Positions 1 to 16,526 of a stretch of 20,695 nt of DNA are shown here, one piece after another. How positions within the stretch are numbered: position 1 is the stretch's first letter; every line of letters begins with the position of its first letter. The notes below the pieces were generated by a model, which saw nothing but the letters and a program-made list of their open reading frames with translations, was not told the origin of the DNA and made no database searches. The DNA is from a virus, in IMG/VR virus record IMGVR_UViG_3300042475_005677, positions 1 through 20,695 of that record, one strand, 5' to 3'. Position numbers and translations under genes: made by a program.

Positions 1-1055
1 TAACAAGTTAGAGAGGGATAAAATACCGGATAGGTATCGGAATTTCTTTTAAGGGTATATATAAAATCATAATTTCGAGGGTCATTAGTATCACTGAAAT
101 ATATATTATTATAAACAAAGTAACCACTGTCAGGTGTAGTATATCTTGTTGCTGTTTTAATAGAGGATCCATCACCTGGGTCCCAATCAATACGATCTAT
201 TGGAAAGCTACCGGTTTTTATCTGAGCAGGGGATAGTTTATATGTGAAAGGTGAATAACCTGTTAAAGGATAACTTTCACAAGTAATTATAGCAGTTGGC
301 TTAACTTCTAAAACTTCAACTATAAAAGGTTTTAAAGCTACTTGCTCAGTTACATCTACTGTTACTTTTGGAATATCGCGCGGATTACATGCAATGTTAT
401 TAGCTTCATATTTCCATCGTTTATAGTAATCCCCGTATTCGTAGGTCTCATACCAAAAAACAGGGTTTCTACCTACACAATTTAAATCTTTCCAAGTCCA
501 GTTTTTACAATATCTTTGAAAACATTTTCCTTCATCGTCCCATTTTTTTGGTTTTCGCTTTTTAAGATCAGCTACTTGGGGTAAAGTACAGTTAGTTTCA
601 TCCCATGTAGTAGCTTGTAAATCCCCGCAATCGAGATTATCCCAATACCAGCCAATTTTATGTCTACCACCACAGGGTATATCACTTGATGGTAATTCAG
701 GCTGATCTTCTTTTGATTGAATATTGGTTAGAGAGACACTGTACTTTCCGGGAAGTATATATGTATGTTCAACAGTTGAGTCTACACAATTTAAAGTTAT
801 TGTGTTATCAACAGAATTATAATAATCCCCAAAATTCCAAATATAGTTTGCTGAAACATCCGGAAAACCGGCATAGATTAAATCTTTAATATCAGATTTA
901 AATACGACTTTAAGCCCCGGGGCATACCCGGATATGTATGTTGTAGTACTATCTGCAACAATATATGTGGGTGTTGTTTCTAACGGGTTACCAATATCCC
1001 AAAAATAATCTTTGGGAACAGTACTGCCTGACACTATATAAAAATCTGTTGTCAT
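1..1055 (-). CDS. Tail/baseplate structural protein with PKD-like domains and a Trp/Cys-rich insert (C-terminus beyond left edge)
   Basis: The frame from ATG at 1055 is open for 351 codons to the window edge, so the protein's C-terminus is missing. The start is well supported: ATG overlaps the TGA of the upstream 1658-aa gene as ATGA, a typical translational-coupling junction. Residues about 69-112 look like a PKD/Ig-like beta-sandwich (IWNFGDYY, then HTYILPGKYSVSLTN). A second PKD-like signature, IDWDPGDGS, starts near residue 289. Between them, residues 128-223 hold seven Cys and many Trp, with four W-x(4,5)-C units. There is no signal peptide or membrane segment. PKD domains are common in phage tail and surface-binding proteins, so a role in the distal tail or baseplate periphery and host contact is inferred from domains and operon position. 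I cannot assign a T4 homologue. Isoleucine is ATA in 11 of 22 codons, unlike the plus-strand genes. Confidence 0.8.
   Translation of the reverse strand, partial: MTTDFYIVSGSTVPKDYFWDIGNPLETTPTYIVADSTTTYISGYAPGLKVVFKSDIKDLIYAGFPDVSANYIWNFGDYYNSVDNTITLNCVDSTVEHTYILPGKYSVSLTNIQSKEDQPELPSSDIPCGGRHKIGWYWDNLDCGDLQATTWDETNCTLPQVADLKKRKPKKWDDEGKCFQRYCKNWTWKDLNCVGRNPVFWYETYEYGDYYKRWKYEANNIACNPRDIPKVTVDVTEQVALKPFIVEVLEVKPTAIITCESYPLTGYSPFTYKLSPAQIKTGSFPIDRIDWDPGDGSSIKTATRYTTPDSGYFVYNNIYFSDTNDPRNYDFIYTLKRNSDTYPVFYPSLTC
477..650 (-). repeat. Four W-x(4,5)-C repeat units within the left-edge structural gene
   Basis: Counting from the ATG at 1055, the units are WDNLDC (138-143), WDETNC (151-156), WDDEGKC (172-178) and WKDLNC (188-193). 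The first and last share a longer form, W-x-W-[DK]-[ND]-L-[DN]-C. Spacings are 13, 21 and 16 residues. The repeat is visible at protein level, and the DNA has diverged. It may be a disulphide- or metal-stabilised mini-domain repeat. I do not recognise it as a named family. Confidence 0.6.
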
Positions 1056-4000
1056 GTAATAGTAATATTTAGAGATGCATATACCGGGCCTGCATCATTA
1101 GTTACTTTAAACGGTAAATTATAAGTTTGCACTGTCTCCGGAGCTAAAATAACTGTAAATTTACCATCTTTAGAAAGCTCAGCCCAATTTGGAAAATTAA
1201 TTGGTTCAAAAATTGAATTTGAGGAAGAAGTTATTAGTTGCTCAAAATATGTTGAACTAACCGGAAGAGTTATATTTAAATTAGACAATAGTGTGGGGGG
1301 TAATGATGGTTGTGTTTGAGGTGTATATATTTTTATTTTATCTACTTCAAACTGTAAAAAGTTATTAATATATAGGGACACTATAGTATTTTTGTTTTCA
1401 ATATTTTTACCAACAAATGAATATAAGAATTGCTTTTTAGAAGAATTATATGATAGAACAGGTTTTGTAACTTCGGTAATATTTAAACTACTAAATGTAG
1501 GGGTAATAGAGGCGATGTTTAGTTCTTGTTTTAGAATATTAGTATTTAAATTTAAGGAATAAAGAGATACTGTAACATTATAATTTTGTAATTCTATTGA
1601 ACTAATAATAACTTTTCTATCTTTAGCAAAAAACCAAGTATCTCCAATTTTTGCTAAAGGTTGATTGGTAGGTAATGTATTTGTAATTTCTCTATTAAGA
1701 TTTGTTTGTACAGGTAAAGTTAATGATATGCTACGAGACAAGTCCGCAATACTGAATAGACGGGCTTGAGAATAGTCATAATTAATTTTTTCAAATATTA
1801 AAGCACCACTTGTCTCTATATACAAAGTATCATAAAAAACATCTATATTAAAAATTCCTGTACCGGTTAATTCGGAATATATACTTAAATTTTTATATGT
1901 GTCAAAAACATCTACTAAAGCAAGGCGACTTGGCTCTGTTTGTTGAGAGTTTTTACGAATCCAAATTTGTCCGGGTCTTGTTTGTCTTACTTTTGGGGTT
2001 GTATTTTTAATATCCTTGTATAATCCGTACTGGTTTCCATATATATCACTACACCATTTATCTAGTTGTAAAGTAGTATTTTTAAGTACTTGATCCTCTA
2101 CCCAACGATTGACGTTTATTTGACCAGTGAAATTAATAGGTTGATTGGACGAATCAGCCCATTCTGTATTTTGAGCGCCTCCCCAAGGGTGTTGTCTACT
2201 AACTGGGGTGGTAAGCCCTATTCTTACAGTCGGGTTACTTTCATAGGTTGATTGATAAGGTATAAATTTTTGATATTTTTTAAATATACTCTTTTTAATA
2301 GTGCCGGCTAAAGATCCGGTTGTATATGGTTCTTTCAACCAAATATTATTATCTTTTACAAGGGAATAAGGGGTAGGTTGTTGTTCTCGGGTTAAACCTC
2401 TGTTGTTAATTTTTTGAGCTGGTGATCCGTATTGATTAGCTAAATTAATTGAACTTAAAGCTAAATCAAAAGTGTAGTCCTTATCAATATATGTTAATAA
2501 CCCTAAATTCTGAGGTTTAAAATAATGACTTAGTTGTTTTGTACTATGTAAAGAATCTAAAGTTGGAAAAGTTGCTACAGTTGGGAAAAATTGATTGGTT
2601 AAATTAGCCCATGGATAATTACCTGTAATAGATGTAGAAGAAATCAATGAAGAAAATATCGTTTCTGCTATTTGAGGTTCGGCAGTAATAGGCCAAGTAA
2701 AAGAGTTTATAGCATTGTAATGTATTTCAACAGGTTCGTTTTCTACAAAGTTTTCTAAAAGAATAGATGATGGTGTTGTTGTAGCTTTTGTAATTAAGGT
2801 GTTTTTAGGACTAAAAATTGTTGGAGTTGTAGTGCTTGAAAATTCAAGTTTACACCATTCATTAATATCTACTGTATTATTAAGAACTATATTTTGATTC
2901 CAAATGATTTGTGTTTGCGGGGTACGTCTATATTCAATATATTCTCCTCCTTTTAATATAATATTTGAAGGCTCGTAGAAGGGTATAGGGTTAAAGGTAT
3001 CAAAAAAGACTCGAGCTGGGGCCCAACTTTCTACAGATTTATAATTTGTACTTTCAGTTTTATTTACATAACTTTTTACCCATACTGGTTTTGCGCCAGA
3101 GTTATTATTTTTAATATTGGATTGCGTATTAGTTGAATAATCCCATCCTCTAAGATCAGTTGTAAGGGCAAATCCTGGTACAGGTGTATAAAACGTGGAA
3201 ACAGTAGGCACGATTGTTGTATTAGGTAATGCAGTTAATTGAGGTATTGCAGAAAAATAAAAACATCCTGTTTGACCATTAGCAGCACTAAGACCTGTTA
3301 ATTCAATTGTAAATGTTCCGGTTAGTATAGGTTTAAAAGTTACTGATTGTTGATCAGGAAAATTTTGACTTATACCTTTTGGTGTTGTTATTTTCCAATT
3401 TAAAACCCGCTGAAAAGAGTTAGGTGGTATTTTTGGTAGTTGATCATACGCGTTTAAACCACCGGTTTGAGTTATAATATTACCTTGAGAGTAAATTATA
3501 GGGTAACTAACAGTTACAAATGTACTTGGATGATTAACTGTAATATAATCAAAATTGCACCATATACTGCCACGATTTTCCGCTATTGTTTGTTCAGCAA
3601 TATAACTACCCGTTATATTATATGATGTTGTGTTAGCACGAGAATATATAATTAAATCATTAGGGTTCAAAACCATTTTTGATGGGGTGTTTGTTGGTTC
3701 CCATCTGTTTATGTTAAACACTGCATTCATCCATACCCCGGGGGTTGTATTCAGATTATTTTGTCTAACTGCAAAAGCAGGGAAGTTACTATCATTAGTA
3801 TTTTTAGTTTTTGTGTTTGCACGATAATAAGCATATCTTTTACCTCTTCTAAGATAAAAACGATTACCTGTATTTTGTGCGCCAGAATACCATGTACCGT
3901 AACCCCAACCAATACTCTTACCAGTCTTGTACCAACTTGCAGCAGGACTATTTGTAAGGTCATTGCCACTTTCATCTCTCCATGAACTAATATCCATGGA

Positions 4001-6028
4001 TGAGAGAGGTATGGTATTAAAATCTTCAACTATAAAATCACAGAGACCGTTATAGTCATAGTAGTTTTCTCCGGGGTGTCCTAATGGTGCAAAATTAACA
4101 AACCTACACGTACAAAGTTCATGGTCATTATAAGTTGTATTTGGTGTAGTTACATATTTGCAGTCTGCGGCATGAGTTGTTGGTAAATTAAAAATATCAT
4201 TAATATCGGTAGTATTATAATCCCATACAAAGTGGGTGAAGGTTCCTGGTGTTAATAAAATATTAAAATTGTTATTTTTAGAGCCGTGAGTGTTGTGTTG
4301 AGGGTATTGAAATGTAGAGGTTGCTGATAGCCATGCACATTCTACAGCTTGACTCGGGCCTTCATATACGTTTTTAATTTTATAAATTACATCAGAAGAA
4401 GAAAGATGATTAGATGCAACAGCAAATGGTATTGTTAGATCAGATACAGATTCAGGTAGACATATGTTATTAGGGGTATATGGTAAATTGTCTAATTGAG
4501 TTGGATCAATTAATTTAAAAAATGGCCATAGAATTGTATTATTTGAATTAGTGCCAATTGAAATATTGGCTTGTGTGAATTTATAAAGCCATGTTTCTTC
4601 GACAGTATCGCTATAACTTAGATCACTATACTGAGGCGGCGTTGCCCAGATACGAATTTTGTCAGCGTTATTATAGTTACTATTTGAATAGGCACCATTA
4701 AAAATTAAAGAAGTTTCATTAATGGGTAAAGGAGCAATACCTGATAGGGAAAAAGAAGAGTTCCAGTAAATTTGCTCAATACCTTTTTTTGTTGTATCGT
4801 CGAGATAAAAATAGCGCGGATCTGTTTCTAGGCCATAACCTGTCCATTTAATATCTTCAGCGGATACTCCATATCCAGGGTAAGGAAAGCGAAATATAGT
4901 AGTGGTGTTACCTTCAAGAGTGGCTTTCATTGTTTTTTCACCTGTATCTAAAATCTTTTTTCGGAACCAAGCGCCTTCAATACCTTTTTTTGTTTTTATA
5001 AAAATTGTATCGGCGTTTTCAATACTAGATCCAGCTGTACCTAAAGCCTGTAAACCTGTTGCACTTAAAGGGGTGGGCACATAACGAGGCAGATTAGCAA
5101 CGTTAATTTTATACGGGCTACCTGGATAATAAAAAAAGTTATTACCGGGTATTATATTAATATTATAAAAATCTTTTTTGGCACTAGATTGTACAATAAG
5201 GGAAGAATAAAAATTTTGTCCTAAGTATTTTTGAGCTAAATCAAAATAAAGACTTGATGACTCAGGACTAGTAGTTCCTTGTAAAGAAGCGTCATTTAAA
5301 GATGATAATGTAAAGGTGCCTAAACGGTAAACCCAATCAATACTTGATAGATTTATACCTTTAGTTAAAAAGTATTTTTCAGTCTCATCTTCTATTGGAA
5401 AATATGCCGACGCCGGTAATGTATAAGAACGATCAAAATAAGAAGCAGTATCGTATAGTTCCTCCACCTCTATTGTAAAACTGTTTTGTATTGAGCTAAG
5501 TAAGGGTACTCGAGACCATAATGTACTTGGTAGGGTTATAACTCCATCTCCTTTTTTTGTATAATTTTGTAAAATAATATCTTGTATTTGTTTTACAACA
5601 CTTTTATTAGATCCAGCTAAGTTATATTTAATTTTAGATCTTTTTATTTGCTCTCTTAACTGTAAATAATACAGCGAGATATTTTTTAACTTTCGAGCAA
5701 AATAAGGTATTGCTAGTAAAACTTCTTTTTCATTATCAATATCAATACCTGAATACCAATTTTCTTTTTCTTCGTCAGTAAAAAAAACTTGTATTTGTTT
5801 TAGTAAATTTAAGAAATTAAGCTTTGTTTGTAATGTAAGATCGTTTTTAGTATTTTCTTTATTTTTATACCAACTGACTAGGTAATCGTTATATTGAGCA
5901 TAGGCTTGTTCAGGTATAATAATTTCAAAGCGGTTTTTCCAAACTCGAAACGAAAGAGGTTTATCCTTATCTGATATATTAGATATAGGAAGTAAATTAT
6001 AGTTGGATTCCGGTACAATATTATTCAC
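1052..6028 (-). CDS. Giant virion structural (baseplate/tail) protein, 1658 aa
   Basis: This is the largest gene in the window, third gene downstream of the gp25-like gene. The start is GTG at 6028, 9 nt after the stop of the upstream gene. No Met occurs in the first part of the protein, so GTG is the best start. The N-terminal third begins with a helical, charged region (about 27-160; for example IPYFARKLKNISLYY and SKIKYNLAGSN). I recall similar segments in large structural proteins of marine T4-like phages, but cannot name the family securely. The rest is Asn/Thr/Ser/Tyr-rich beta-type sequence, as in fibres and adhesins. Residues 619-663 hold a Cys/His cluster (C623, H636, C639, C641, H651, C663). 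PKD/Ig-like patches occur at about 930-990 and at the C-terminus (VTNDAGPVYASLNITIT). It has no transmembrane segment or signal peptide. Operon position after gp25-gp6 and an intermediate gene suggests a baseplate wedge or peripheral tail component. The precise role is unknown. Confidence 0.8.
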   Translation of the reverse strand: MNNIVPESNYNLLPISNISDKDKPLSFRVWKNRFEIIIPEQAYAQYNDYLVSWYKNKENTKNDLTLQTKLNFLNLLKQIQVFFTDEEKENWYSGIDIDNEKEVLLAIPYFARKLKNISLYYLQLREQIKRSKIKYNLAGSNKSVVKQIQDIILQNYTKKGDGVITLPSTLWSRVPLLSSIQNSFTIEVEELYDTASYFDRSYTLPASAYFPIEDETEKYFLTKGINLSSIDWVYRLGTFTLSSLNDASLQGTTSPESSSLYFDLAQKYLGQNFYSSLIVQSSAKKDFYNINIIPGNNFFYYPGSPYKINVANLPRYVPTPLSATGLQALGTAGSSIENADTIFIKTKKGIEGAWFRKKILDTGEKTMKATLEGNTTTIFRFPYPGYGVSAEDIKWTGYGLETDPRYFYLDDTTKKGIEQIYWNSSFSLSGIAPLPINETSLIFNGAYSNSNYNNADKIRIWATPPQYSDLSYSDTVEETWLYKFTQANISIGTNSNNTILWPFFKLIDPTQLDNLPYTPNNICLPESVSDLTIPFAVASNHLSSSDVIYKIKNVYEGPSQAVECAWLSATSTFQYPQHNTHGSKNNNFNILLTPGTFTHFVWDYNTTDINDIFNLPTTHAADCKYVTTPNTTYNDHELCTCRFVNFAPLGHPGENYYDYNGLCDFIVEDFNTIPLSSMDISSWRDESGNDLTNSPAASWYKTGKSIGWGYGTWYSGAQNTGNRFYLRRGKRYAYYRANTKTKNTNDSNFPAFAVRQNNLNTTPGVWMNAVFNINRWEPTNTPSKMVLNPNDLIIYSRANTTSYNITGSYIAEQTIAENRGSIWCNFDYITVNHPSTFVTVSYPIIYSQGNIITQTGGLNAYDQLPKIPPNSFQRVLNWKITTPKGISQNFPDQQSVTFKPILTGTFTIELTGLSAANGQTGCFYFSAIPQLTALPNTTIVPTVSTFYTPVPGFALTTDLRGWDYSTNTQSNIKNNNSGAKPVWVKSYVNKTESTNYKSVESWAPARVFFDTFNPIPFYEPSNIILKGGEYIEYRRTPQTQIIWNQNIVLNNTVDINEWCKLEFSSTTTPTIFSPKNTLITKATTTPSSILLENFVENEPVEIHYNAINSFTWPITAEPQIAETIFSSLISSTSITGNYPWANLTNQFFPTVATFPTLDSLHSTKQLSHYFKPQNLGLLTYIDKDYTFDLALSSINLANQYGSPAQKINNRGLTREQQPTPYSLVKDNNIWLKEPYTTGSLAGTIKKSIFKKYQKFIPYQSTYESNPTVRIGLTTPVSRQHPWGGAQNTEWADSSNQPINFTGQINVNRWVEDQVLKNTTLQLDKWCSDIYGNQYGLYKDIKNTTPKVRQTRPGQIWIRKNSQQTEPSRLALVDVFDTYKNLSIYSELTGTGIFNIDVFYDTLYIETSGALIFEKINYDYSQARLFSIADLSRSISLTLPVQTNLNREITNTLPTNQPLAKIGDTWFFAKDRKVIISSIELQNYNVTVSLYSLNLNTNILKQELNIASITPTFSSLNITEVTKPVLSYNSSKKQFLYSFVGKNIENKNTIVSLYINNFLQFEVDKIKIYTPQTQPSLPPTLLSNLNITLPVSSTYFEQLITSSSNSIFEPINFPNWAELSKDGKFTVILAPETVQTYNLPFKVTNDAGPVYASLNITIT

Positions 6029-6037
6029 TGTAATTAT

Positions 6038-9000
6038 TTAACTAAAAATTCTTTTGGTCAATATATAGTTAAAAGAATTTTCTATTGCTCCATTATCTCC
6101 GTACCAATCACTAAATGTTGATAAATTGCGAGATAATGTTGTATGTGGATCATTCCAATCGATTTGATTTTCTATATATGCTCCAGTGTATTTAGGAATA
6201 AAGTTATAAAATTCATAAATGACTGTTACTGGTTGTTCTAAACCATAACCTAGAAATTCTGATAATGGATAAACAAAGGTAGACGATAAAGTAGGTACCT
6301 GTATAACCGTGTATTTACCATCAAATTTATTACGTAATGCTAATTTAGTTCCTGCTGTTAATAAAGAGGTTTGAACATTAAGACGATTTTCAATATCTAA
6401 GCTTTGTTCTAGTAATGGTATTTCATCAGGTAATCCCCAAAGTTTTGCTTTAGGTATAGAAGCAATATCTAAAAAGTCTCGAACTTCAGGTGGTAGTTCG
6501 GCACCATAATTAACAAAAGGGGTTTGTGTGAGTTGAGCATAAGCTTGTAACTGTTGGGTACCGCATGTATCGATATCAGCATGATAATCCGCAAAATTCG
6601 CAATTTTTTCATAAATGGTTTTTCCGATATCTTGATAATTACTTGCTTGATTATTACCTGCAGCAGCTCCTAAAAAGTCTTTAAAAAGTATATTATTGTT
6701 ATTTAAATTTTCAGGTAATGCCAATGATTGCAAATAATTAGCCATATCAAAAGAGTTATTGACTCTGTGTACTTGATAGTTATTAATAAAAGGTTCAATA
6801 TCAAAAGTATTAGATACACCTGAGATCGGAAATGCTCTGGAACTTTCAGATATTGCATATTTTTGATACCAACAATTACCTGTCCAGTCTCCGTTTGCAT
6901 ATAGACTTTGTTGCCGACTACTAGTTGAAACAACGGTTGTATAATTGTTTATATCAATATAAAAACCTATCGGGGTATTAGGTATAACTTTAATTTTTTT
7001 TATGAAATGTTCATTAAAAGAGGGAGTAGCTGAAAGTACCCAAACGTTACTATTAAAAGAATCAACCACCCAAACCCGATTATAGACATCTATAGCTAAC
7101 CCGGTTATTGTAGGATCTTTTTGTTTCTCTTCTTTCGTTATTATTGTTTCGGATCCAAAAGGATTGGACAGAGTATCATCGGTTGATAGTTCCCATGTCC
7201 GTCTTGCACTAGTTTGAACATTATAAAAACCGAAACGGCGATCCCCAAACGTAAACCACAGATTGCTTTGACGATCTAGAGAAACATTATTAGGTCTAAA
7301 AGTATCAATCGTGCTTAATCGCGTAAAGTTCGTTCCATCATATAAATCAATACTACCTAATTCATCTTCAACGTTAAAAGATTTAGCTACCCAAATATTG
7401 TTTTGAGGAGTAATTGCTAAACTACACGGCATAGAATATTTTTCAAGCTCGATCTGACCAAGGATTTGACCATCAGAACTATACTTTACTAAATAACACC
7501 CAGCAGGGGAAGCATACGTAGCCCAACAATTATTATCAGAATCAGTTTCTACATACGGGGGCTTATATATAAAGTCTCCATCAAGTACTTCTTCATGGTT
7601 ATAACCAGACGGAGCAACACTAAAAAGTAAATTAAAATCTCTATCAAGTTTTAATACAGATACAGAATTAAAAAGAGATACCCAAATATTACAATCTCTA
7701 TCTAAGCTTACATTACTTGGAGTATGTGCATTACGAATAGGGTCTAGTCCTGAAATGCTTGACAGAGGCAGTGTACTTAATAATATACCTTCTGTTGAAT
7801 AGCGATATAAGCAATCGAGTTCAGCATCAGCACAAATAACATCATAATTTCTAGGATCAACAGCTATACTAAAAATACCTGAAAACCCAGACATAGTGTA
7901 ATTGTATGTTGAGGTAGTTGAAAGTGAAGGTACTTCTATATCTTTAATAAACCCTTCAACTAAAATATTTTTATCTATAAAATAGTCAATAGTGGTGTTA
8001 TTAACAGAGTGTGGTATTAAAGTAATTTTGTTGAGTGTTTTATGTCCTGGGTTTGAAACCCAAGCTATACACCCTGGAGCATAACCATAGGGATATTCAA
8101 ATTGATCTATATAAGATACTCTTGTATTAAACGCTGTTGTCTGAGCTATAATTGCAGTATTTGTTGCTGTAGTATTACAAGTTAAAGTTGTAAATAAATA
8201 ACCACCTGTCTGAAAGCCGTCTTTATCTGTTGTTTGAAAGTAGAGAGGGGCTTCATCGATAGTATAGTCCCCGGGGTTTAATCCGCACAAACTTATATTA
8301 ATAGTGCCTAATTGACCTGTTGCGTTGTCATCAGGGTATGAAAATAAAATTTCACTAATAGTATCATCTCCGCCTGTAATTCGAAAAGCTCTATTTCCAT
8401 GACATGAAACAATAAAAGGTATTTTTATACCTTTCCATTTTTGTTTTGGAATACCGTCAAGATAGTTACTAGTTATTTTTAATAAATGTGGTGAAAGATC
8501 ATTTACATGCCATAATATACCTGTTCGCACAGTTTCATTATTACTAAAACTAGGGTAATCAAAATTTTTAGAATCATTATAATTTACAAACCCTGAAGTT
8601 TGTAAAGTTGCAGTTATTAAAATTGGTGTATTTTGGCTTAAATCGCCGTTGCTTATACTATCAGCAAAATAAAATTCTGTTTCACCAGAAATAGCAACTA
8701 CCCGGCCATCAGCATTATAAATCGGGGATGATAGGACAGGTAAGGTAGTTACAATATTATTATTTTTATCGAGAAATTTCCAAGTCGGGTTTAAAAAGTT
8801 CCACCGGGAAGAAACAAATTGACTTGGTATAGATTTAGAATTTGCTACATGTAAGTCAACATATAAGGGTTTATTAATTTGGGAACAAAGAACACTAATT
8901 TTAAAAGGTGTAGCCGTTGATATACCAGGGTCAGCAAACGTATCAGGTATTTGATTTACTAACAAAAAGTCTCGATACAAATATTCTGTAGAGATAGTTG

Positions 9001-9229
9001 TACTAAAAGTGCTTGTTTCGCCGTTTAAACCAATAGCTGTTAAAGTTATTGTTTTAGTGCCGTTTGTATTATAAATGAATGTTGGATTTTTTGTGTTGTA
9101 AATTAAATTACCTTCACCAAAATCCCATACATAAGTGTACAAATTACCTGTTGATATATTTGTGGCAGAAAATTCAGTTCCATAAACATCACCTGATAAT
9201 GGAGATATGGTAAAGTTTGCTGTAACCAT
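6038..9229 (-). CDS. Baseplate-associated structural protein with N-terminal PKD domain and NHL/Vgb-type beta-propeller, 1063 aa
   Basis: The ATG at 9229 follows the gp6-like stop by 5 nt. Residues 1-82 form a classic PKD domain (YVWDFGEGN, then TKTITLTAIG). Residues about 450-735 contain repeated propeller-blade signatures: NVSLDRDCNIWVSL, VETDSDNNCWATY, LAITPQNNIWVAKS, NVSLDRQSNLWFTF and LAIDVYNRVWVVDS. Each is a strand, then D-x-x-[GN]-N-x-W, then a strand, as in NHL or virginiamycin-B-lyase-like propellers. The C-terminal ~270 residues are non-repetitive (LRNKFDGKYTVIQVP and neighbours) and may be the particle-anchoring part. In T4 the gene after 25-6 is 7 (1032 aa), so the length and position match gp7. 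I see no sequence proof of homology. Propeller plus PKD suggests a surface or carbohydrate-binding role at the baseplate rim (inference). No lyase active site could be recognised. Confidence 0.8.
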   Translation of the reverse strand: MVTANFTISPLSGDVYGTEFSATNISTGNLYTYVWDFGEGNLIYNTKNPTFIYNTNGTKTITLTAIGLNGETSTFSTTISTEYLYRDFLLVNQIPDTFADPGISTATPFKISVLCSQINKPLYVDLHVANSKSIPSQFVSSRWNFLNPTWKFLDKNNNIVTTLPVLSSPIYNADGRVVAISGETEFYFADSISNGDLSQNTPILITATLQTSGFVNYNDSKNFDYPSFSNNETVRTGILWHVNDLSPHLLKITSNYLDGIPKQKWKGIKIPFIVSCHGNRAFRITGGDDTISEILFSYPDDNATGQLGTINISLCGLNPGDYTIDEAPLYFQTTDKDGFQTGGYLFTTLTCNTTATNTAIIAQTTAFNTRVSYIDQFEYPYGYAPGCIAWVSNPGHKTLNKITLIPHSVNNTTIDYFIDKNILVEGFIKDIEVPSLSTTSTYNYTMSGFSGIFSIAVDPRNYDVICADAELDCLYRYSTEGILLSTLPLSSISGLDPIRNAHTPSNVSLDRDCNIWVSLFNSVSVLKLDRDFNLLFSVAPSGYNHEEVLDGDFIYKPPYVETDSDNNCWATYASPAGCYLVKYSSDGQILGQIELEKYSMPCSLAITPQNNIWVAKSFNVEDELGSIDLYDGTNFTRLSTIDTFRPNNVSLDRQSNLWFTFGDRRFGFYNVQTSARRTWELSTDDTLSNPFGSETIITKEEKQKDPTITGLAIDVYNRVWVVDSFNSNVWVLSATPSFNEHFIKKIKVIPNTPIGFYIDINNYTTVVSTSSRQQSLYANGDWTGNCWYQKYAISESSRAFPISGVSNTFDIEPFINNYQVHRVNNSFDMANYLQSLALPENLNNNNILFKDFLGAAAGNNQASNYQDIGKTIYEKIANFADYHADIDTCGTQQLQAYAQLTQTPFVNYGAELPPEVRDFLDIASIPKAKLWGLPDEIPLLEQSLDIENRLNVQTSLLTAGTKLALRNKFDGKYTVIQVPTLSSTFVYPLSEFLGYGLEQPVTVIYEFYNFIPKYTGAYIENQIDWNDPHTTLSRNLSTFSDWYGDNGAIENSFNYILTKRIFS

Positions 9230-9234
9230 AATAT

Positions 9235-11088
9235 TTATCTAAACAAATTACTAGCAATAACATCTATGTTGTTTGCAAGTGTATCTATATTGTTGAAATA
9301 CGGATATTGAAATGGAAGTAAAGCTACATTATTTGTTGTTACTGTTTTATCATTTTCAGGGTAAACCGGGTTCCATGAAAATAGTGATAAACCTTTAATT
9401 CTAATATTAGGGTTATCTACTCTTATAGTATAAAAATCAACCACTCCTTCAACATCTAAAATATTCTGTGCTAATTGTTGTATTTCGACAATTTGACCCA
9501 TCTTAGTTTGTTTTTGAGAGAAGTAACTTTTAATTATATTAACAATATCTTGTTTTATAGCAGTATCACTTCGGCGAGAAGTAGGTTGTTTTATTATACG
9601 GAGACGACATGAATTTTGTTCAACAACAGGATCAAAATTACTAATAGTTTCTGCTATTCCAAGATTGAAAGCCATATACACAGGATCAATAAAAACTGTT
9701 TCTGATGTAAGAACTTTATTTTCTTGTAACGTGTTACTAATAAGTTCTTTTTGTACAGGTAACAGGTATGTCAAAGTTTGAGAGGAACGCGGAACTGCTA
9801 TCAAATATACATTATTAAAGTTACAACTATCAGCTAGTAAAACTTGATTGAAAAGAGCCCGTGTGGTTTTTTCTGGTTCATTAATACCTATATCATAAAA
9901 ATAACGCAAATAATTAAAAACATATTCATTATTATTATAAACTTTAATATCGGAAATTAAATTTGCAAAGTTTGATCTTAAAAATACTTCATAATCTTTA
10001 GCGGTTACTAAACGATACTGCCCTCGATATGTAATAGGGGCATTTTCCCGAATTTGGTTAGTGGTTTCGGCAGGAGCAAAATCTGTTGAGCCTACATCAT
10101 TTACAAATCTTAACGTACTTGTTTGATTGTTGCTAATTAACTGGTAGCTATCTTGAAGAGTATCTTGAAGTATTTGATTAAAACGAATAGTGTCAAATAT
10201 TCTTGGTCGTGCTTCAGTTTGTACATTAGGCGTTGTTTGAGGTGAAATATTAGCACTATATTGTAAACTACCTGCTGCTACTACACCCTTATCCCCTAAA
10301 GACTGTAAATAATATATACCTACTTCATCTCCTGTTTGAAGTTTATAACCATTTATATTATCCCCAAATTTTATTTCGTAGTATTGATTCGCATTTAAAC
10401 GAATTTCGTATTTTTTATTACCTGTATCTTCGAGATATAAATTTGGAGTTTTTGCAAAAAGTTCCCATTTACCTGTTAAAGCAGGTTTAACATAAACATC
10501 AATGTTAAAATGATCTACTATATAAGGACCTGGGTTTAATATTATTGTTTCGTAATTATCTCCAGCTGCTGTATAAGTAGGGTATTCTTGGTAGATGCCT
10601 TGATATAAAAGTTTTTGTTCACTAATTTCTTGTAAATACTCTGCAGAACTATTTAAAGTTTTATTAAAAGTTATATCTTCATTAAAAGAGAACGGAATAT
10701 TACCTGATGCTAGTAGATAGCTATATCTCGGTAAAGTGTATAATCCTTGGGAAAGACTAACTGCAGAACATTTAAAAGAAAGAGTTGAGGTTTGAGCACC
10801 TTGTGGAGAATAGTCAATTAGTTTAACAATACGATTTATGTTTTCATATAATTGAGCCTCTGTAAACATCGATTCAGAAGATGTACGATTAAGATAATAA
10901 ATTAACGTATTGTACGCATAAGCAACTATATCTATAATTGCTGCTAAATTTGACCCGACATAATTTTGGTCAGTGAATGTACCTTGTTCATTAAGTCGGT
11001 TAATGATTAGCTGTCTTAAAGATGTAGCATCAAAAGCAGCATATCCGCCTTTTGGTATATCGAAGGGATTGTAATTTGTAGTGGCCAT
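9235..11088 (-). CDS. 6: Baseplate wedge protein, T4 gp6-like (baseplate J-like)
   Basis: This 617-aa protein is close in size to T4 gp6 (660 aa), which forms the inner ring of the contractile-tail baseplate wedge and holds neighbouring wedges together. Residues 19-95 carry the family's conserved N-terminus (SLRQLIINRLNEQGTFTDQN, SNLAAIIDIVAYAYNTLIYY, SESMFTEAQLYENINRIVKL). Two motifs typical of baseplate J/gp6 proteins follow: FGDNINGYKLQTGDEVGIYY at 241-260 and RGQYRLVTAKDYEVF at 355-369. The ATG at 11088 comes 2 nt after the gp25-like stop, so the two are almost certainly co-transcribed and made together. In T4 the order is also 25 then 6. It has no signal peptide or membrane segment, and the protein acts in virion assembly in the cytoplasm. 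This is one of the firmest assignments here. Confidence 0.93.
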   Translation of the reverse strand: MATTNYNPFDIPKGGYAAFDATSLRQLIINRLNEQGTFTDQNYVGSNLAAIIDIVAYAYNTLIYYLNRTSSESMFTEAQLYENINRIVKLIDYSPQGAQTSTLSFKCSAVSLSQGLYTLPRYSYLLASGNIPFSFNEDITFNKTLNSSAEYLQEISEQKLLYQGIYQEYPTYTAAGDNYETIILNPGPYIVDHFNIDVYVKPALTGKWELFAKTPNLYLEDTGNKKYEIRLNANQYYEIKFGDNINGYKLQTGDEVGIYYLQSLGDKGVVAAGSLQYSANISPQTTPNVQTEARPRIFDTIRFNQILQDTLQDSYQLISNNQTSTLRFVNDVGSTDFAPAETTNQIRENAPITYRGQYRLVTAKDYEVFLRSNFANLISDIKVYNNNEYVFNYLRYFYDIGINEPEKTTRALFNQVLLADSCNFNNVYLIAVPRSSQTLTYLLPVQKELISNTLQENKVLTSETVFIDPVYMAFNLGIAETISNFDPVVEQNSCRLRIIKQPTSRRSDTAIKQDIVNIIKSYFSQKQTKMGQIVEIQQLAQNILDVEGVVDFYTIRVDNPNIRIKGLSLFSWNPVYPENDKTVTTNNVALLPFQYPYFNNIDTLANNIDVIASNLFR

Positions 11089-11090
11089 AA

Positions 11091-11588
11091 TTAGGTATTT
11101 TTAACTGGTAGGGAAATAAATGTTTCTTTTCGAAGATCAAATACAAAATTTAATTCTGTGGTTTGATTTATAAGAGGTAGTTTGATAACGATTGTAATTT
11201 CGTACTGATTCTCATCCGGTATAGCAACTACATTTACATTTAATGGTTCTACTCTTATTTCATAAGTTTTTATGCCGTTAAAAATTGTATTACCAATTGC
11301 TTGAGCGTTATTAACAGTAACAGGGGAAAATAAATAACGTTTAAGATTAAGGCCATATTCAGGGAATAAAAATCTCTGGCCAGGGGTTGTATTAAAAAGG
11401 TTTATGAGGGAGTTGCTTATAGCATCTAAATCAAAACTAGCTTTAATATCTGTACTTGGGGCGGGTAATAAGAGCCCGGGGGTTTCTACTTTTGATTGAG
11501 TTAAATCTAAGCTTAAATCTTTATACACGTATTTATTAGTAGTATATTGATCTGCTAAAGTTTCTAGATCTTTAATCTTAATAGCCAT
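11091..11588 (-). CDS. 25: Baseplate wedge protein, T4 gp25-like (GPW/gp25 family)
   Basis: This 165-aa protein carries the gp25/GpW signature at residues 69-87 (PGQRFLFPEYGLNLKRYLF). It continues into the family's beta-alpha-beta region (IFNGIKTYEIRVEPLNVNV, then ITIVIKLPL). T4 gp25 is 132 aa, so this copy has an N-terminal extension of roughly 30-40 residues. gp25 sits in the baseplate wedge core, contacts gp6 and the sheath, and helps start sheath polymerisation. It is the first gene of the leftward baseplate operon: the next gene on its right is divergent, so its promoter must lie in 11589-11638 or within the neighbouring 181-aa gene. The ATG at 11588 has no Shine-Dalgarno sequence upstream. 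Ile codons are ATA in 6 of 15 cases. Confidence 0.93.
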   Translation of the reverse strand: MAIKIKDLETLADQYTTNKYVYKDLSLDLTQSKVETPGLLLPAPSTDIKASFDLDAISNSLINLFNTTPGQRFLFPEYGLNLKRYLFSPVTVNNAQAIGNTIFNGIKTYEIRVEPLNVNVVAIPDENQYEITIVIKLPLINQTTELNFVFDLRKETFISLPVKNT

Positions 11589-11638
11589 ATTACACTATTA
11601 TTTAGAGCAAGAGTTGCATAAATAATATCAGAATTATT
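11589..11638. promoter_or_regulatory. 50-bp divergent intergenic region between the gp25-like and 181-aa genes
   Basis: The region is almost entirely A+T and must contain, or be close to, the start points for both flanking genes. On the minus strand there is TCTAAATA (11599-11606), and on the plus strand CATAAATA (11617-11624). Each is one base off the T4 late-promoter core TATAAATA. Neither is exact, and in sequence this AT-rich such near-matches are expected by chance, so this is only a candidate. There is no Shine-Dalgarno sequence for either gene. Confidence 0.25.
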
Positions 11639-12184
11639 ATGGAAACTAAATTTGATGTCTTATTCGAAAATCTATTAGAGCGTTATCAACAGGGCGGCTT
11701 TTTAATTGGGGACCGTGTTCGTTTTAAAAAGGATGCTTTAAAATCAGATTTTATGAAAGATAAAGGTCAAAACTTTATCGATGTTGTAAAATCTTGTATG
11801 GATCCAGGTTTTGATCTTAACTTAAGAATTTCCGCAATTAAATCAATCTATCCAACAACAACTCAAAACTATCGTGGAGGTACTGAATCTCCTGATAGCA
11901 TTTATGCTGATGTTATTGTAGAGTATGCTCCAGGTCTTTATCGTACACCAATGACAGTGCCTATTGAGATATTGGAGCTTCAAGATGACGGCATTAATAC
12001 AGGGCCGGTTCCTGATTCGGTTCGTCGTAAATCAAAAATTAACATTAAACCTAAAAAGGTAGAAGCTGAACAAAAAGCTGACTTTGATATTAACCTGCAA
12101 AACAAAAACGTACAACTTCCTGGCGGAACAAAGTGGAATGATAAAGAGCCAGGTGCAGGTAATTCGCCAAAGAGAAAATACTAA
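11639..12184 (+). CDS. Uncharacterised 181-aa phage protein, possible SH3-like fold
   Basis: I do not recognise this family. Residues 18-112 look like one compact domain that opens with QGGFLIGDRVRFKKDAL and closes with ADVIVEYAPGLYRTPMTVPI. A 'GDRVRF' opening with a terminal strand pair is reminiscent of SH3/KOW-like barrels, but that is only a visual impression. The C-terminal ~60 residues are low in hydrophobics and rich in Lys, Asp, Asn and Gly (RRKSKINIKPKKVEAEQK, ending SPKRKY), probably a disordered basic tail. There is no signal peptide or membrane segment. It lies upstream of the ribonucleotide reductase on the same strand, but a terminator-like hairpin and a 65-nt gap separate them, so they may not share an mRNA. 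Codon choice resembles the other plus-strand genes. The ATG at 11639 is the first start in frame. Its presence between virion and nucleotide genes does not reveal a role. Confidence 0.8.
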   Translation: METKFDVLFENLLERYQQGGFLIGDRVRFKKDALKSDFMKDKGQNFIDVVKSCMDPGFDLNLRISAIKSIYPTTTQNYRGGTESPDSIYADVIVEYAPGLYRTPMTVPIEILELQDDGINTGPVPDSVRRKSKINIKPKKVEAEQKADFDINLQNKNVQLPGGTKWNDKEPGAGNSPKRKY

Positions 12185-12203
12185 GTAGATTTACTAGTTT
12201 TTT
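12181..12203 (+). terminator. Candidate intrinsic terminator after the 181-aa gene
   Basis: CTA-(A)-GTA (12181-12187) can pair with TAC-TAG (12192-12197) around a GATT loop with one bulged A. Six T residues (12198-12203) follow at once. The left arm overlaps the stop codon at 12182-12184. The stem is short and AT-rich, so termination is likely to be weak. Placement right after the gene and the T-run are the supporting features. Confidence 0.35.
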
Positions 12204-12209
12204 GGCGTA

Positions 12210-12227
12210 GAATAGCTTAAGTTATTC
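12210..12227. promoter_or_regulatory. 18-bp palindrome upstream of the ribonucleotide reductase gene
   Basis: GAATAGCTTAAGTTATTC is a perfect inverted repeat apart from one symmetric base pair (positions 6/13, which would form G-U in RNA). It is centred on CTTAAG and lies 22 bp before the RTPR start. It overlaps a weak -10-like TAGAAT (12208-12213), so it is placed like an operator. It does not resemble an NrdR box. It could instead be an mRNA hairpin in the leader. Confidence 0.35.
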
Positions 12228-12249
12228 GCACACATTCTTTGTCAAATTT

Positions 12250-14241
12250 ATGATTACAAACTATACCTCTGAGCTGTTACCGGAAAAGTTTTTACAAAAA
12301 TATATCAATAAAGAAGTACCTTGGGGCTTCAATGGTTTAGGATATATTGTCTATAAAAGAACCTATGCTAGAAAGATAGAAGGTACAGACAATACTGAGG
12401 AGTGGTGGCAGACGGTGGCGCGCTGTATTAATGGTGCACAAGAAATTGGTGCAGATTATACACCAGAAGAAGCTCAGCGTTTGTATGATTTAGTCTTTAA
12501 TCTTAAGTGTAACTTTGCCGGAAGAATGCTCTGGCAGTTAGGTACTGAAACTGTTAAGAAGTTTGGTGCTAACTCTTTATTAAACTGTTGGTATTGTAGT
12601 ATCAATGATCCTAAGACCTTTCTCTTTATCTTTGAGAACTTAATGCTTGGAGGTGGTGTTGGTTTCTCTATTCGCAGAGAAGACATTCACGAACTTCCTA
12701 AGATTAAAAAGAGTGTATCTATTGAACATCAATGTACAAAGGATGCTGACTTTATTGTACCTGATTCTCGTTCAGGTTGGGTTGAATTACTTCGTAAGGT
12801 TTTAGATGCTTATTATGTAACCGGTAAATCGTTTAGTTACTCTACTATCCTTGTAAGAGGTTCGGGTGAACGTATTTCAGGCTTTGGTGGTACAGCTTCT
12901 GGTCCTGGTATTCTTATTGAAGGTATTGAAAAGATTTCTAAGATCTTACAATCAAGAGAAGGAAAGAAGCTCCGTTCTACAGATGTTCTTGATATCTGTA
13001 ATATCATTGGTTCAATTGTTGTAGCAGGTAACGTTCGTCGTTCAGCTCAAATTGCTCTCGGAGACCCTGATGACTATCTCTATCTCAGAGCTAAGAACTG
13101 GTCGTTAGGTAATATCCCTAACTGGAGAGCAATGTCTAATAATACAATTTACGCTGATGACTTTTCTCATATTTCTAGTGAGATCTGGACAAACGGCTAT
13201 ATTGTAGATAAAGAAACCGGTTTTGCTAAAGGTGAACCATATGGTTTCTTTAATCTTCCTTTATCTCAAAAGTTTGGTCGTCTTAAAGACGGGGCTATGA
13301 AATCATCTAAGCTCTATCCTACAAATGAAGATAACGTGCTTGGAACTAATCCTTGTGCTGAAATCTCATTAACGTCTTATGAGTGCTGCAATCTTTCTGA
13401 GTTGTATCTTAATAATATTACTTCTGTTGAAGAATTAACTGACTGTGCTACTTTGCTTTATAAAACACAAAAAGCAACAGCAGCAATGCCCTTTATCCAT
13501 GATGAGACCAATAAAATTGTTCATAAAAATATGCGCTTAGGTCTCGGTGTTACCGGTATTTGTCAATGTTCAGATGAGAAGATTCAATGGCTTGATAAGG
13601 CCTATGAGGCTCTTCGTAAATTTGATAAAGAGTGGTCAAAACATAAAGGTTATCCTGAATCAATTAAGTTAACTACAGTTAAACCGTCTGGTACTCTTTC
13701 ATTACTCGCAGGTTCAACACCCGGGGTACACCCTGCTTATTCACCCTTCTATATTCGTAGAGTAAGAATGGGTTCAGGAGATAAGCTAGTTAACATTTGC
13801 CGAGAACTTGGTTATCATGTAGAATATGTTCGAGGGTTTGATGGTAAAGACGATCATTCAACTGTGGTTGTTTCATTCCCTTGTTCAGCAGGTAATGAGT
13901 GTGTAGTAGCTAAATCAATGTCAGCTGTTCAGCAGCTTGACTTAGTTAAGAAGCTTCAAACTTATTGGTCAGATAATGCTGTATCAGTTACTGTTTATTA
14001 TAAGCAAGAAGAGCTAGAAGAAATCAAAGCTTGGCTTGAATATAACTACGAGACATCTATTAAGTCTGTATCGTTCCTGCTTCACAATGAGCATGGTTTT
14101 GCTCAAGCACCTTACGAAGAGATTTCTGAAGAAGAATATAAAAAGCTCTCTGAGAAAGTGAAATCAATTACCACAATTAATATCGGTCAAGGTGATATTG
14201 AGAGTATGGAGTGTGAGGGTGGAGCTTGCCCTATTAAGTAA
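12250..14241 (+). CDS. nrdJ: Adenosylcobalamin-dependent ribonucleoside-triphosphate reductase (class II, monomeric RTPR type)
   Basis: This enzyme reduces NTPs to dNTPs using a cobalamin-generated thiyl radical, supplying precursors for phage DNA. All catalytic residues known from the Lactobacillus leichmannii enzyme can be placed: radical Cys in NPCAEI (C369, with N367 and E371), active-site disulphide pair C113 (LNCWYC) and C380 (YECCNLSE, 11 residues after C369, the same spacing as C408-C419), and the C-terminal shuttle pair C655/C660 in ECEGGACPIK, spaced like C731/C736. Other family motifs are GGGVGFSIRRED (133-144), NVRRSAQIALGDPDD (261-275), PSGTLSLLAGSTPGVHPAYS (479-498) and YIRRVRM. 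The 663-aa length is shorter than the 739-aa L. leichmannii enzyme. There is no intein or intron interruption. The start ATG at 12250 lacks a Shine-Dalgarno sequence. It does not fit class I, as no NrdB partner or class I tyrosines are present. Only 1 of 47 Ile codons is ATA. Confidence 0.95.
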   Translation: MITNYTSELLPEKFLQKYINKEVPWGFNGLGYIVYKRTYARKIEGTDNTEEWWQTVARCINGAQEIGADYTPEEAQRLYDLVFNLKCNFAGRMLWQLGTETVKKFGANSLLNCWYCSINDPKTFLFIFENLMLGGGVGFSIRREDIHELPKIKKSVSIEHQCTKDADFIVPDSRSGWVELLRKVLDAYYVTGKSFSYSTILVRGSGERISGFGGTASGPGILIEGIEKISKILQSREGKKLRSTDVLDICNIIGSIVVAGNVRRSAQIALGDPDDYLYLRAKNWSLGNIPNWRAMSNNTIYADDFSHISSEIWTNGYIVDKETGFAKGEPYGFFNLPLSQKFGRLKDGAMKSSKLYPTNEDNVLGTNPCAEISLTSYECCNLSELYLNNITSVEELTDCATLLYKTQKATAAMPFIHDETNKIVHKNMRLGLGVTGICQCSDEKIQWLDKAYEALRKFDKEWSKHKGYPESIKLTTVKPSGTLSLLAGSTPGVHPAYSPFYIRRVRMGSGDKLVNICRELGYHVEYVRGFDGKDDHSTVVVSFPCSAGNECVVAKSMSAVQQLDLVKKLQTYWSDNAVSVTVYYKQEELEEIKAWLEYNYETSIKSVSFLLHNEHGFAQAPYEEISEEEYKKLSEKVKSITTINIGQGDIESMECEGGACPIK

Positions 14242-14262
14242 GTTTATTCTTTAATCTTACTT
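14236..14262. terminator. Weak candidate bidirectional terminator at the RTPR/tail-fibre convergence
   Basis: AAGTAAG (14236-14242) and CTTACTT (14256-14262) form a 7-bp inverted repeat around a 13-nt AT loop, followed on the plus strand by two further T (14263-14264). The repeat spans both stop codons of the convergent genes, which are only 2 bp apart, and there is no other room for a terminator. The stem has just two G-C pairs and a large loop, so its efficiency is doubtful. Confidence 0.25.
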
Positions 14263-16526
14263 TTAAGCTCTTGTACTTCTTGTGAAAGTTCTTTAATTGC
14301 CTCAATTAACAAAGGAATAATTTTTTCGTATTTTACAGCTAAATATCCATTCTCTCTTTCAGCAACAACTTCTGGTAATACCGCTTGTAGCTCTTGAGCA
14401 ATAACACCGACATCATGCTTACGTAAAAGGTATTTGTTTTCACCTCCATGAGCTTCAATATATTCTTTTGTCCAATCATATTCTATACCTGTAATTTTAT
14501 TAACCTTTTCCAGTGCTGCGTTAAGAGGTTTAATATTTTCTTTTAAACGAATATCTGATGCACTAAAAGCCGTTATATCACCAGTTGCATTAATAGTTCC
14601 ATTAGCTGTAATATTAGCAAACGCTACATTATCGTTTGTAGCTAAACCGAAAGCCGTTCTCGCTGCAGCGGCGGTGTTAGCACCGGTGCCGCCGTTGGCA
14701 ATAGCTAGAGTACCTGTAATTTTACCGGCGCCCAGAGTAAAATCAGCGTGAGGTGCTTTTGCCTCTTTAGCTGTAATTGTGGTTGCTGGATCTTTCCAAG
14801 CCGGTGCTGTAAGTGAGCCAGTAGAAACAAGTACATCACCGCCGGCGGGAGTGATTGTTAAGCCAATATCTGACTTAGTTGTATCTGTCCCTGAGTTATA
14901 AAGAAGTCCGCGTTCGCCGATAACATTAGTTGCTTTAGTTGCGGTGGTGGCGTTTGTAGCGGAGCCAACAGAGAGATTAGACTGAAGTGTCCAGGTTGGT
15001 GCAGTAGTACCGCCAGATACCAATACACGATTAGCATCCGCGGTATATGCTACCCCTATAGTACCGGTATCGTCTGTCAAGTGAACAACACCATTTCTTC
15101 TAACTGCTGTAGTGGTAAAGCTCAGACCTCGTGCAGTGCCTGCTGTTAAATCTGTTTGATTTACCCATGTGGGTATTTTTAAAACATTAGTCCTTAATAC
15201 ATAATTTTCACTTACAGGTTGATCTGTAAAAGATGTTGCATTTAAGCCTGAAACATAAGGTATACGACCTACAACGTTTATACTAGTTGCACCTGTAATA
15301 TTTGCTGTACCTATATTAGGTACAAAATTTAATTCTACGCTCTTCCAAGCAGGGGCCCAACGATTTGTAAATGGAGCGGCTTGCTGTACTAATCCCAAAA
15401 ACATAGTGCTTTGAGAAGATGTTGGAGTGGCTAAAAGAGCAGTATTGCTTTTATCTATTTGATAAATTAACCGGTTGAAGTAAGATCCGTCACTATTTTC
15501 TAACCACGGCATGTCACCGGTATTTCCTGCTACAAGCTCAAATCTTGTTGAATAAACTGATGAAGTTGCAGCATTGACTGTTAAACCTACTACATCGCTC
15601 CAGGATGGTGCAGAACTCCCATTACTTCTTAAAAATTGACCGGCTGTACCTGTAGGTAAAAATGCAGTAACATTAGCCCCGCTTTGGTATGCTATTTGGC
15701 CTATTGTGCCCCCTGTTAAGTTACCAGCTCTTGTTGAAAGAGCTATTTCATTAAAATTACCCAATATAGTGCCTGAAGCGCTTATACCCCCAAAAACAGT
15801 TAATCTTGACGGATTATTCGGTACCGATCCACCAATTGCAACATTACTATTAATATCCCAAACCGGTCTTCCCGGTGATAGTTTAACAGGTGTTACATTA
15901 TTATCTGCAATTTTGGAAGTATTAACTGCACTTTCTTTAATAGTTAAGGCTTGATAAGTTGTTTGAAAAACGGGGTTAGGGGGATTTACAGTAATATCAA
16001 ACCCCCGAGTAAATTGATCTGATCCTGTATAATTAAAATAAGCAGGATCTAAAAACCCTGTTGTAGTTGTTCCTCCTCCGCCACCTCCACCTAGGCTTAC
16101 TGTTGCATTAACCCAATTGGTACCATTCCATTGTAGAAGTTGACCATTAATAGGTGTAGTAATTAAAACATCCTGTAGAGCAGATAAGTTTGCGGCTGTT
16201 AATAGCGTTTTACCAGCTTGTAATATATTGCCGCCTAATTTAGCAGTATTAATAGAGCCGTCAATTACATCTGCAGATATACGGTTTAAACTTGTACTAT
16301 AATTTAAATTAATGGTCGGGGTATTTACGACATTAAATTTAAAAACATGAGAGGATAAACCTGCAAAAAGATTTGTAGAAACACTATCGAGGCGAGTATC
16401 TAGATTTGTAAAATTATTATTAAATACTTTTAAAGTGTCTCCCATACACCACTCTCTACCAATTTTGTAGAGAAGTGTTCCGGCTTCTGTTTGAGGCGGA
16501 TCATTAGGCGGACTTAATATAGGCAT
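14244..16526 (-). CDS. Tail fibre protein with C-terminal intramolecular chaperone (peptidase S74 domain)
   Basis: This 760-aa protein is a trimeric-type fibre. The short N-terminal region (1-60, ending in a heptad-like stretch NNNFTNLDTRLDSVS) is likely to attach to the virion. A shaft follows with a seven-Gly run at 146-152. It holds five diverged copies of the fibre motif L-x-S-x-G-x-x-A-P-x-W (near 126, 294, 439, 497 and 561) and a classic AIANGGTGANTAAAARTAFG segment (608-627). The C-terminus is an S74 chaperone that trimerises the fibre and cuts itself off: ASDIRLKENI places the catalytic dyad at S657/K662. GVIAQELQAVLPEVV and a terminal coiled coil (IEAIKELSQEVQELKSKI) follow. The chaperone would be about 104 residues after cleavage. 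The fibre presumably binds the host surface. The ATG at 16526 is 5 nt after the gp16-like stop. DNA near the 3' end (about 14660-14850) is visibly more GC-rich than its surroundings, suggesting a mosaic origin. Confidence 0.92.
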   Translation of the reverse strand: MPILSPPNDPPQTEAGTLLYKIGREWCMGDTLKVFNNNFTNLDTRLDSVSTNLFAGLSSHVFKFNVVNTPTINLNYSTSLNRISADVIDGSINTAKLGGNILQAGKTLLTAANLSALQDVLITTPINGQLLQWNGTNWVNATVSLGGGGGGGTTTTGFLDPAYFNYTGSDQFTRGFDITVNPPNPVFQTTYQALTIKESAVNTSKIADNNVTPVKLSPGRPVWDINSNVAIGGSVPNNPSRLTVFGGISASGTILGNFNEIALSTRAGNLTGGTIGQIAYQSGANVTAFLPTGTAGQFLRSNGSSAPSWSDVVGLTVNAATSSVYSTRFELVAGNTGDMPWLENSDGSYFNRLIYQIDKSNTALLATPTSSQSTMFLGLVQQAAPFTNRWAPAWKSVELNFVPNIGTANITGATSINVVGRIPYVSGLNATSFTDQPVSENYVLRTNVLKIPTWVNQTDLTAGTARGLSFTTTAVRRNGVVHLTDDTGTIGVAYTADANRVLVSGGTTAPTWTLQSNLSVGSATNATTATKATNVIGERGLLYNSGTDTTKSDIGLTITPAGGDVLVSTGSLTAPAWKDPATTITAKEAKAPHADFTLGAGKITGTLAIANGGTGANTAAAARTAFGLATNDNVAFANITANGTINATGDITAFSASDIRLKENIKPLNAALEKVNKITGIEYDWTKEYIEAHGGENKYLLRKHDVGVIAQELQAVLPEVVAERENGYLAVKYEKIIPLLIEAIKELSQEVQELKSKIKE

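Follow-up and report, generated by a model that had tools for sequence, protein, structure and literature searches.

A removable seven-bladed beta-propeller predicted in a protein at the gp7 position of T4-type baseplate wedge operons from uncultured viruses

The window, that is the whole stretch of DNA analysed here, is a 20.7-kb virus record (20,695 nucleotides). Its minus strand carries an operon that begins with a gene for a gp25-like baseplate wedge protein of 165 aa (positions 11091 to 11588; Pfam PF04965, E 9e-12; phrog_261, E 3e-21) and continues with that of a gp6-like baseplate wedge protein of 617 aa (positions 9235 to 11088; phrog_219, 'baseplate wedge subunit', E 3e-41), for which the match to PF21379 (Gp6-like_1st, E 5e-4) stayed below the cut-off. 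The third gene (positions 6038 to 9229) encodes a PKD and beta-propeller protein of 1063 aa, hereafter X. Its ATG start codon lies 5 bases past the stop of the gp6-like gene, and X is thus the gene following 25 and 6, as a preliminary description of the window had stated. The gp25 and gp6 homologues adjoin X and are co-directional with it, as in a T4-type wedge operon. The fourth gene, ORF1658 (positions 1052 to 6028), encodes a large conserved protein outside the named families, with no Pfam, PHROG or phage-record match; its N-terminal part of about 200 aa is kept even in distant clades. As to the type of phage, gp23, the T4-type major capsid protein, was found in 9 of 12 related contigs and is about 33% identical to cyanophage gp23; the window fragment does not cover that region. 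No psbA gene was seen in the 12 related contigs, which gives no support to a cyanobacterial host.

The search with gp6 yielded 26 loci; all those that reached far enough show the order gp25, gp6, X. The next gene was an ORF1658 homologue in most of them; in two loci whose X has no propeller, L094 (positions 9909 to 13741) and L097 (positions 9912 to 13814), four smaller genes (247-256, 191, 357 and 440-444 aa) occupy its place. Alignments of X, used as queries, brought further loci, so that 143 distinct X sequences were collected, counting fragments. The gp25-gp6-X slot, which holds an X homologue in all related loci mapped, recurs in more than 100 distinct uncultured viral relatives, so that the search for the same architecture in viral genomes, suggested in the preliminary description, had a positive outcome; the linkage is strict down to gp6 identities of about 36-40%. 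When X, a distant X, a propeller-less X and ORF1658 were used as queries, no match was obtained in 50,697 phage records, and thus no cultured member. No relative of X was found in the sample of 84,980 prokaryote genomes scanned, which therefore gave no clue to the host. Foldseek returned a full-length match to X in BFVD, A0A6J7XER1 from an uncultured Caudovirales phage (E 4e-66, 22% identity). This protein is a deposited member of the X family, annotated only as 'PKD domain containing protein', with neither propeller nor baseplate context named.

We modelled X with AlphaFold2 from a deep alignment of 87 aligned relatives (mean pLDDT 87.6, pTM 0.74); this model supersedes an earlier one, made from 19 alignment rows, that was poor outside the PKD domain and the propeller. 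The N-terminal PKD domain noticed at the outset was borne out: it spans residues 1-84 (positions 8978 to 9229, minus strand, as for all parts of X), Pfam PKD_4 matches residues 18-74 with an E-value of 8e-8 and 32.6 bits against a gathering cut-off of 27, the profile comparison with the PKD domain of ColH gave an E-value of 1.3e-22, and pLDDT is about 90. The domain was found in 19/19 relatives scanned. The N-terminal beta-rich part of the scaffold comes next (residues 85-369, positions 8123 to 8977), as read from the model and kept in propeller-less members, followed by a unit that is missing from propeller-less orthologues (residues ~370-798, positions 6836 to 8122). The propeller lies within this unit (residues 386-785, positions 6875 to 8074; model m1770480d4edb, block pLDDT mostly 80-96). 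The last part of the scaffold (residues 799-1063, positions 6041 to 6835) is predicted to be helical (helices at residues 829-931) and then beta, and its helical part is the best-conserved region among distant relatives, as judged from region identities. X had been said to have the length of T4 gp7, but 1063 aa is not diagnostic, as relatives range from 620 to more than 1700 aa.

Evidence for the propeller from the single sequence was marginal (Pfam NHL, E 0.06; Vgb_lyase, E 0.1), the NHL score of the window protein being 13.9 bits against a cut-off of 20; the NHL-type assignment is thus drawn from the family profile and the fold. The profile of the 87 relatives matched NHL-type propellers of known structure, namely the designed Pizza6 (E 1.7e-30), PknD (1.5e-16) and virginiamycin B lyase (2e-5). 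For the modelled propeller (residues ~384-785), the structure comparison by VIA-align gave a Z-score of 30.3 to 1l0q (rmsd 2.4 over 283 residues), of about 27-28 to seven-bladed proteins, including 27.9 to the designed 7-bladed 7bid, and of 27 to Vgb lyase; these lists contain propellers only and inform on the propeller, not on the fold of the scaffold. In the strand list we read six NHL-like blades (~450-750) and a seventh made of strands 388-432 and 754-781, that is from both ends of the domain, which closes the ring. Model and profile together indicate that X carries a closed seven-bladed NHL-type beta-propeller at residues ~386-785. The full-structure prediction proposed in the preliminary description thus gave a closed propeller around residues 450-735, in agreement with the expected propeller of at least five blades; only the limits were too narrow, since the domain covers 386-785 and the insert ~370-798.

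In two separate groups of relatives, residues ~370-798 are precisely what is missing from X, the rest of which is intact (620-780 aa). In L094-L097, X has 620-621 aa (L095 is shortened by the contig end), and by BLASTP these proteins align to residues 1-367 and ~786/789-1063 of the window protein with 42-50% identity and nothing between; taken over the whole remainder of the protein, identity is ~46-50%. In L221-L251, X has ~690-780 aa and aligns to the stretches on either side of the propeller in a distant member, usually leaving a few residues between the two. Across the seam the same two scaffold segments are joined, the sequence reading '...TTIIAQTSALSG | SSVTELSGQSNEFSV...' in propeller-less and '...TAIIAQTTAFN[propeller]PISGVSNTFDIEPF...' in propeller-bearing proteins. 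With a profile of the propeller, members of the propeller class reached 40.8 bits or more, and the propeller-less members listed had either no score or 1.8 bits. We then compared the distribution of the propeller with two trees. The gp6 tree (98 rows) requires the propeller to be gained or lost three times, each time because of well-supported branches, and places L094-L097 as sister to the propeller-bearing L007/L081/L085. The tree of X without the propeller columns also requires three changes, again imposed by supported branches, and puts the window in a supported set of 21 rows that includes three propeller-less members. In both trees L094-L097 lie within clades of propeller-bearing members. 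Since three gains or losses are forced in each of the two trees, the propeller is a removable insert in a wedge-operon scaffold. By parsimony, the state of L094-L097 is a loss, and the window's own clade contains a loss. The existence of natural propeller-less orthologues, which keep the rest of the scaffold and the same seam, also argues for a module grafted into another protein, as had been proposed for this wedge-slot protein. The propeller, about 430 residues, would interrupt a beta-hairpin of the scaffold past residue ~369. As the fold and the seam suggest, a closed propeller begins and ends at neighbouring points, so that phages could keep, acquire or drop it while leaving the wedge intact.

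Other domains were found in the scaffold. At residues 346-456, X of L017 contains an inserted domain with a match to phrog_677 (E 1e-22; baseplate wedge tail fiber protein connector). The L007/L009/L064 group has about 250-300 additional aa between blades, and in L203 (E 2e-8) and L205 (E 5e-7) an RCC1-like propeller is present in a C-terminal extension of X. In L203 (positions 4980 to 10581) and in L205/L206/L210, where X is extended at its C-terminus, a separate downstream ORF holds the final ~90 aa of the scaffold. The scaffold of the X family accepts more than one kind of guest domain. One may go further and speculate that, in a whole lineage of the T4 superfamily, gp7 gave way to a PKD-based plug-in wedge platform, or was deeply remodelled into one, in which NHL-type and RCC1-like propellers and fibre-connector domains were inserted, swapped and deleted, host contact being read directly by the wedge; we put this forward as a tentative idea.

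Looking at the place of X in the operon, directly after gp6, it was natural to compare it with gp7. T4 gp7 resembles X in that its gene lies directly downstream of gp6, in its size of ~1000 aa, in its N-terminal Ig/FN3-like domain (fn3, E 0.002, residues 7-89) and in a helical domain in the C-terminal half. In contrast, the helical, V and VI domains of gp7 were not found in X (no match to PF21428, PF21427 and PF21456, respectively), the PKD domain and the propeller are features of X, and profile homology is not detectable: hhalign of each domain of X against the T4 gp7 family alignment and the marine gp7 core gave nothing significant (probability at most ~5%), which includes the C-terminal region that the preliminary description had proposed to compare with gp7. 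ORF1658 gave nothing significant against the same two targets. The gp7-slot proteins of cyanophages and of pelagiphage HTVC008M share with X the position after gp25-gp6 and an enlargement by extra domains, the annotated coordinates giving 3,274 aa in S-RIM44, 4,446 in P-HM1 and 6,603 in P-RSM4. They differ from X by a gp7-type core, 'FY..KGT..S..FLFR', near the N-terminus (a weak match to T4 gp7, E 8e-4), which X does not have; no propeller was seen in them, and no homology to X was detectable by sequence or profile in the gp7-slot proteins of cultured marine T4-like phages. In some relatives, the C-terminal beta domain gave a BLAST similarity to gp55 of HTVC008M (best E 8e-4 in a set of 13 proteins), which was judged to be due to chance, given its low identity, the many queries and profile scores that were not significant. 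In nine related contigs we found no gp7 helical domain, no pelagiphage gp7 core (a protein query run without positive control) and no gp8 match; divergence past detection is a plain alternative reading of these blanks. With no homology detected between the scaffold and T4 gp7, the label 'gp7' is a positional one for X: the gp7 position announced for this gene stands, in that the slot after gp25-gp6 is kept in every related locus mapped, but gp7 identity does not follow from any profile or Pfam match. From the invariant synteny we infer that X is a wedge subunit.

What the propeller does can be approached from its evolution. Because some relatives cleanly lost it, it is probably accessory and not a core part of the machine. 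It is not hypervariable and does not evolve faster than the whole of X (0.71 against 0.70 and 0.45 against 0.47). A fast-evolving host-range tip is therefore not supported, and the equal pace, which differs from that of a typical tip of this kind and so counts against the contact reading given next, points to a conserved ligand or partner rather than to rapid host-range switching. The reading we favour, at roughly even chances, is that X is a wedge subunit at the place of T4 gp7 in an uncultured lineage of T4-superfamily phages and that its propeller is an accessory device by which the tail tip makes contact, its most likely ligand being on the host surface; this presumes that X is part of the virion wedge, that the propeller faces outward and that it adheres. 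The conserved wedge part (N-terminal PKD domain, beta-rich middle, C-terminal helical and beta domain) would form the scaffold, from which the propeller would stand out to contact its ligand at the tail tip, acting as a secondary adhesin or as a contact sensor on the host surface. The host-recognition module evoked in the preliminary description may be retained as a possibility. The main rival starts from the same wedge subunit and makes the propeller a docking platform for virion proteins, either the short or long fibres or the ORF1658 product, instead of a host-binding device. Propellers are often platforms for protein-protein contacts, the propeller and the scaffold evolve at equal pace, and the large conserved ORF1658, in most loci the gene next to X, has given way to other genes in the propeller-less L094 and L097. 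Propeller and ORF1658 are not strictly linked, however, since a homologue of ORF1658 is still found in the propeller-less L096 and, in shorter form, in the distant clades without propeller. We consider docking a lesser, though serious, possibility.

It is unlikely, in our opinion, that X is a peripheral tail or fibre protein that sits in the gp7 slot while another, unrecognised gene provides the gp7 function. X indeed has no gp7 signature, fibre or adhesin proteins often carry PKD domains and propellers, and a PKD fold is found in receptor-binding proteins of Herelleviridae (PMC11406892). Against this, the gp25-gp6-X linkage holds at long distance, the whole scaffold is kept in propeller-less members with its C-terminal helical part most conserved among distant ones, the nine related contigs contain no other gp7 candidate, and the same slot holds a gp7-type protein in cyanophages and HTVC008M. 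An enzyme of the virginiamycin B lyase type, acting on a compound of the host surface, is highly improbable. Vgb_lyase is the best named Pfam similarity in many relatives (15/19 at E<=0.1) and is among the fold matches, yet the scores seen are far below the curated cut-off and the strongly conserved positions of the propeller are the structural W/D/N/P/G of NHL blades. The only column with a histidine in more than half of the members is 661 (37/66), and the window protein lacks it; the enzyme module envisaged at the outset is thus weakly disfavoured, no strongly conserved histidine having been seen in the propeller.

As for a propeller carried by a wedge subunit, several known proteins can be compared with X. 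The sensor domain of PknD, Pizza6, Vgb lyase and the S-layer protein 1l0q are likewise closed propellers of NHL-type repeats, and 1l0q, a PKD/YVTN surface-layer protein, also pairs PKD with a propeller; unlike these NHL, Vgb and YVTN propellers, that of X is inserted in a phage wedge-operon scaffold and is closed by strands from both ends. The receptor-binding protein of phage phi11 reportedly binds teichoic acid through a beta-propeller; it is like X in having a propeller in a baseplate protein, and unlike it in being the receptor-binding protein of a siphophage. In phage Vp4, the wedge protein gp119 carries carbohydrate-binding modules (PMC11406892) and thus resembles X by its ligand-binding domains in a baseplate protein, and differs from it by the nature of these domains and by having no propeller. 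In the open-access literature, the scope of our search, we found no paper joining baseplate wedge, beta-propeller and phage, and nothing related on NHL repeat, phage and baseplate.

In contractile injection machines, the baseplate wedge is seen as the conserved core, while recognition is left to the fibres. Natural pairs with and without the propeller, such as L007/L081 and L094/L096, would allow a direct test of a contact module borne by the wedge. Moreover, an architecture and a name are now available for more than 100 distinct environmental sequences that are unannotated in current phage libraries.

Finally, we compared the window with its relatives L006 and L009. Nucleotide identity is 0.86-0.96 over positions 11,501-14,250 (RNR and a 181-aa gene) and mostly 0.6-0.79 from gp25 onward. 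The level changes abruptly close to the divergent intergenic region at 11,590-11,640, from about 0.9 or more over RNR and the 181-aa gene to about 0.65-0.73 over gp25-gp6-X. It thus seems that the wedge operon is exchanged, or diverges, as one unit. A second island of divergence is the fibre gene ending in an S74 chaperone (positions 14244 to 16526), between the conserved RNR and dUTPase/clamp-loader blocks; the length of this fibre gene in relatives ranges from 155 to 760 aa.
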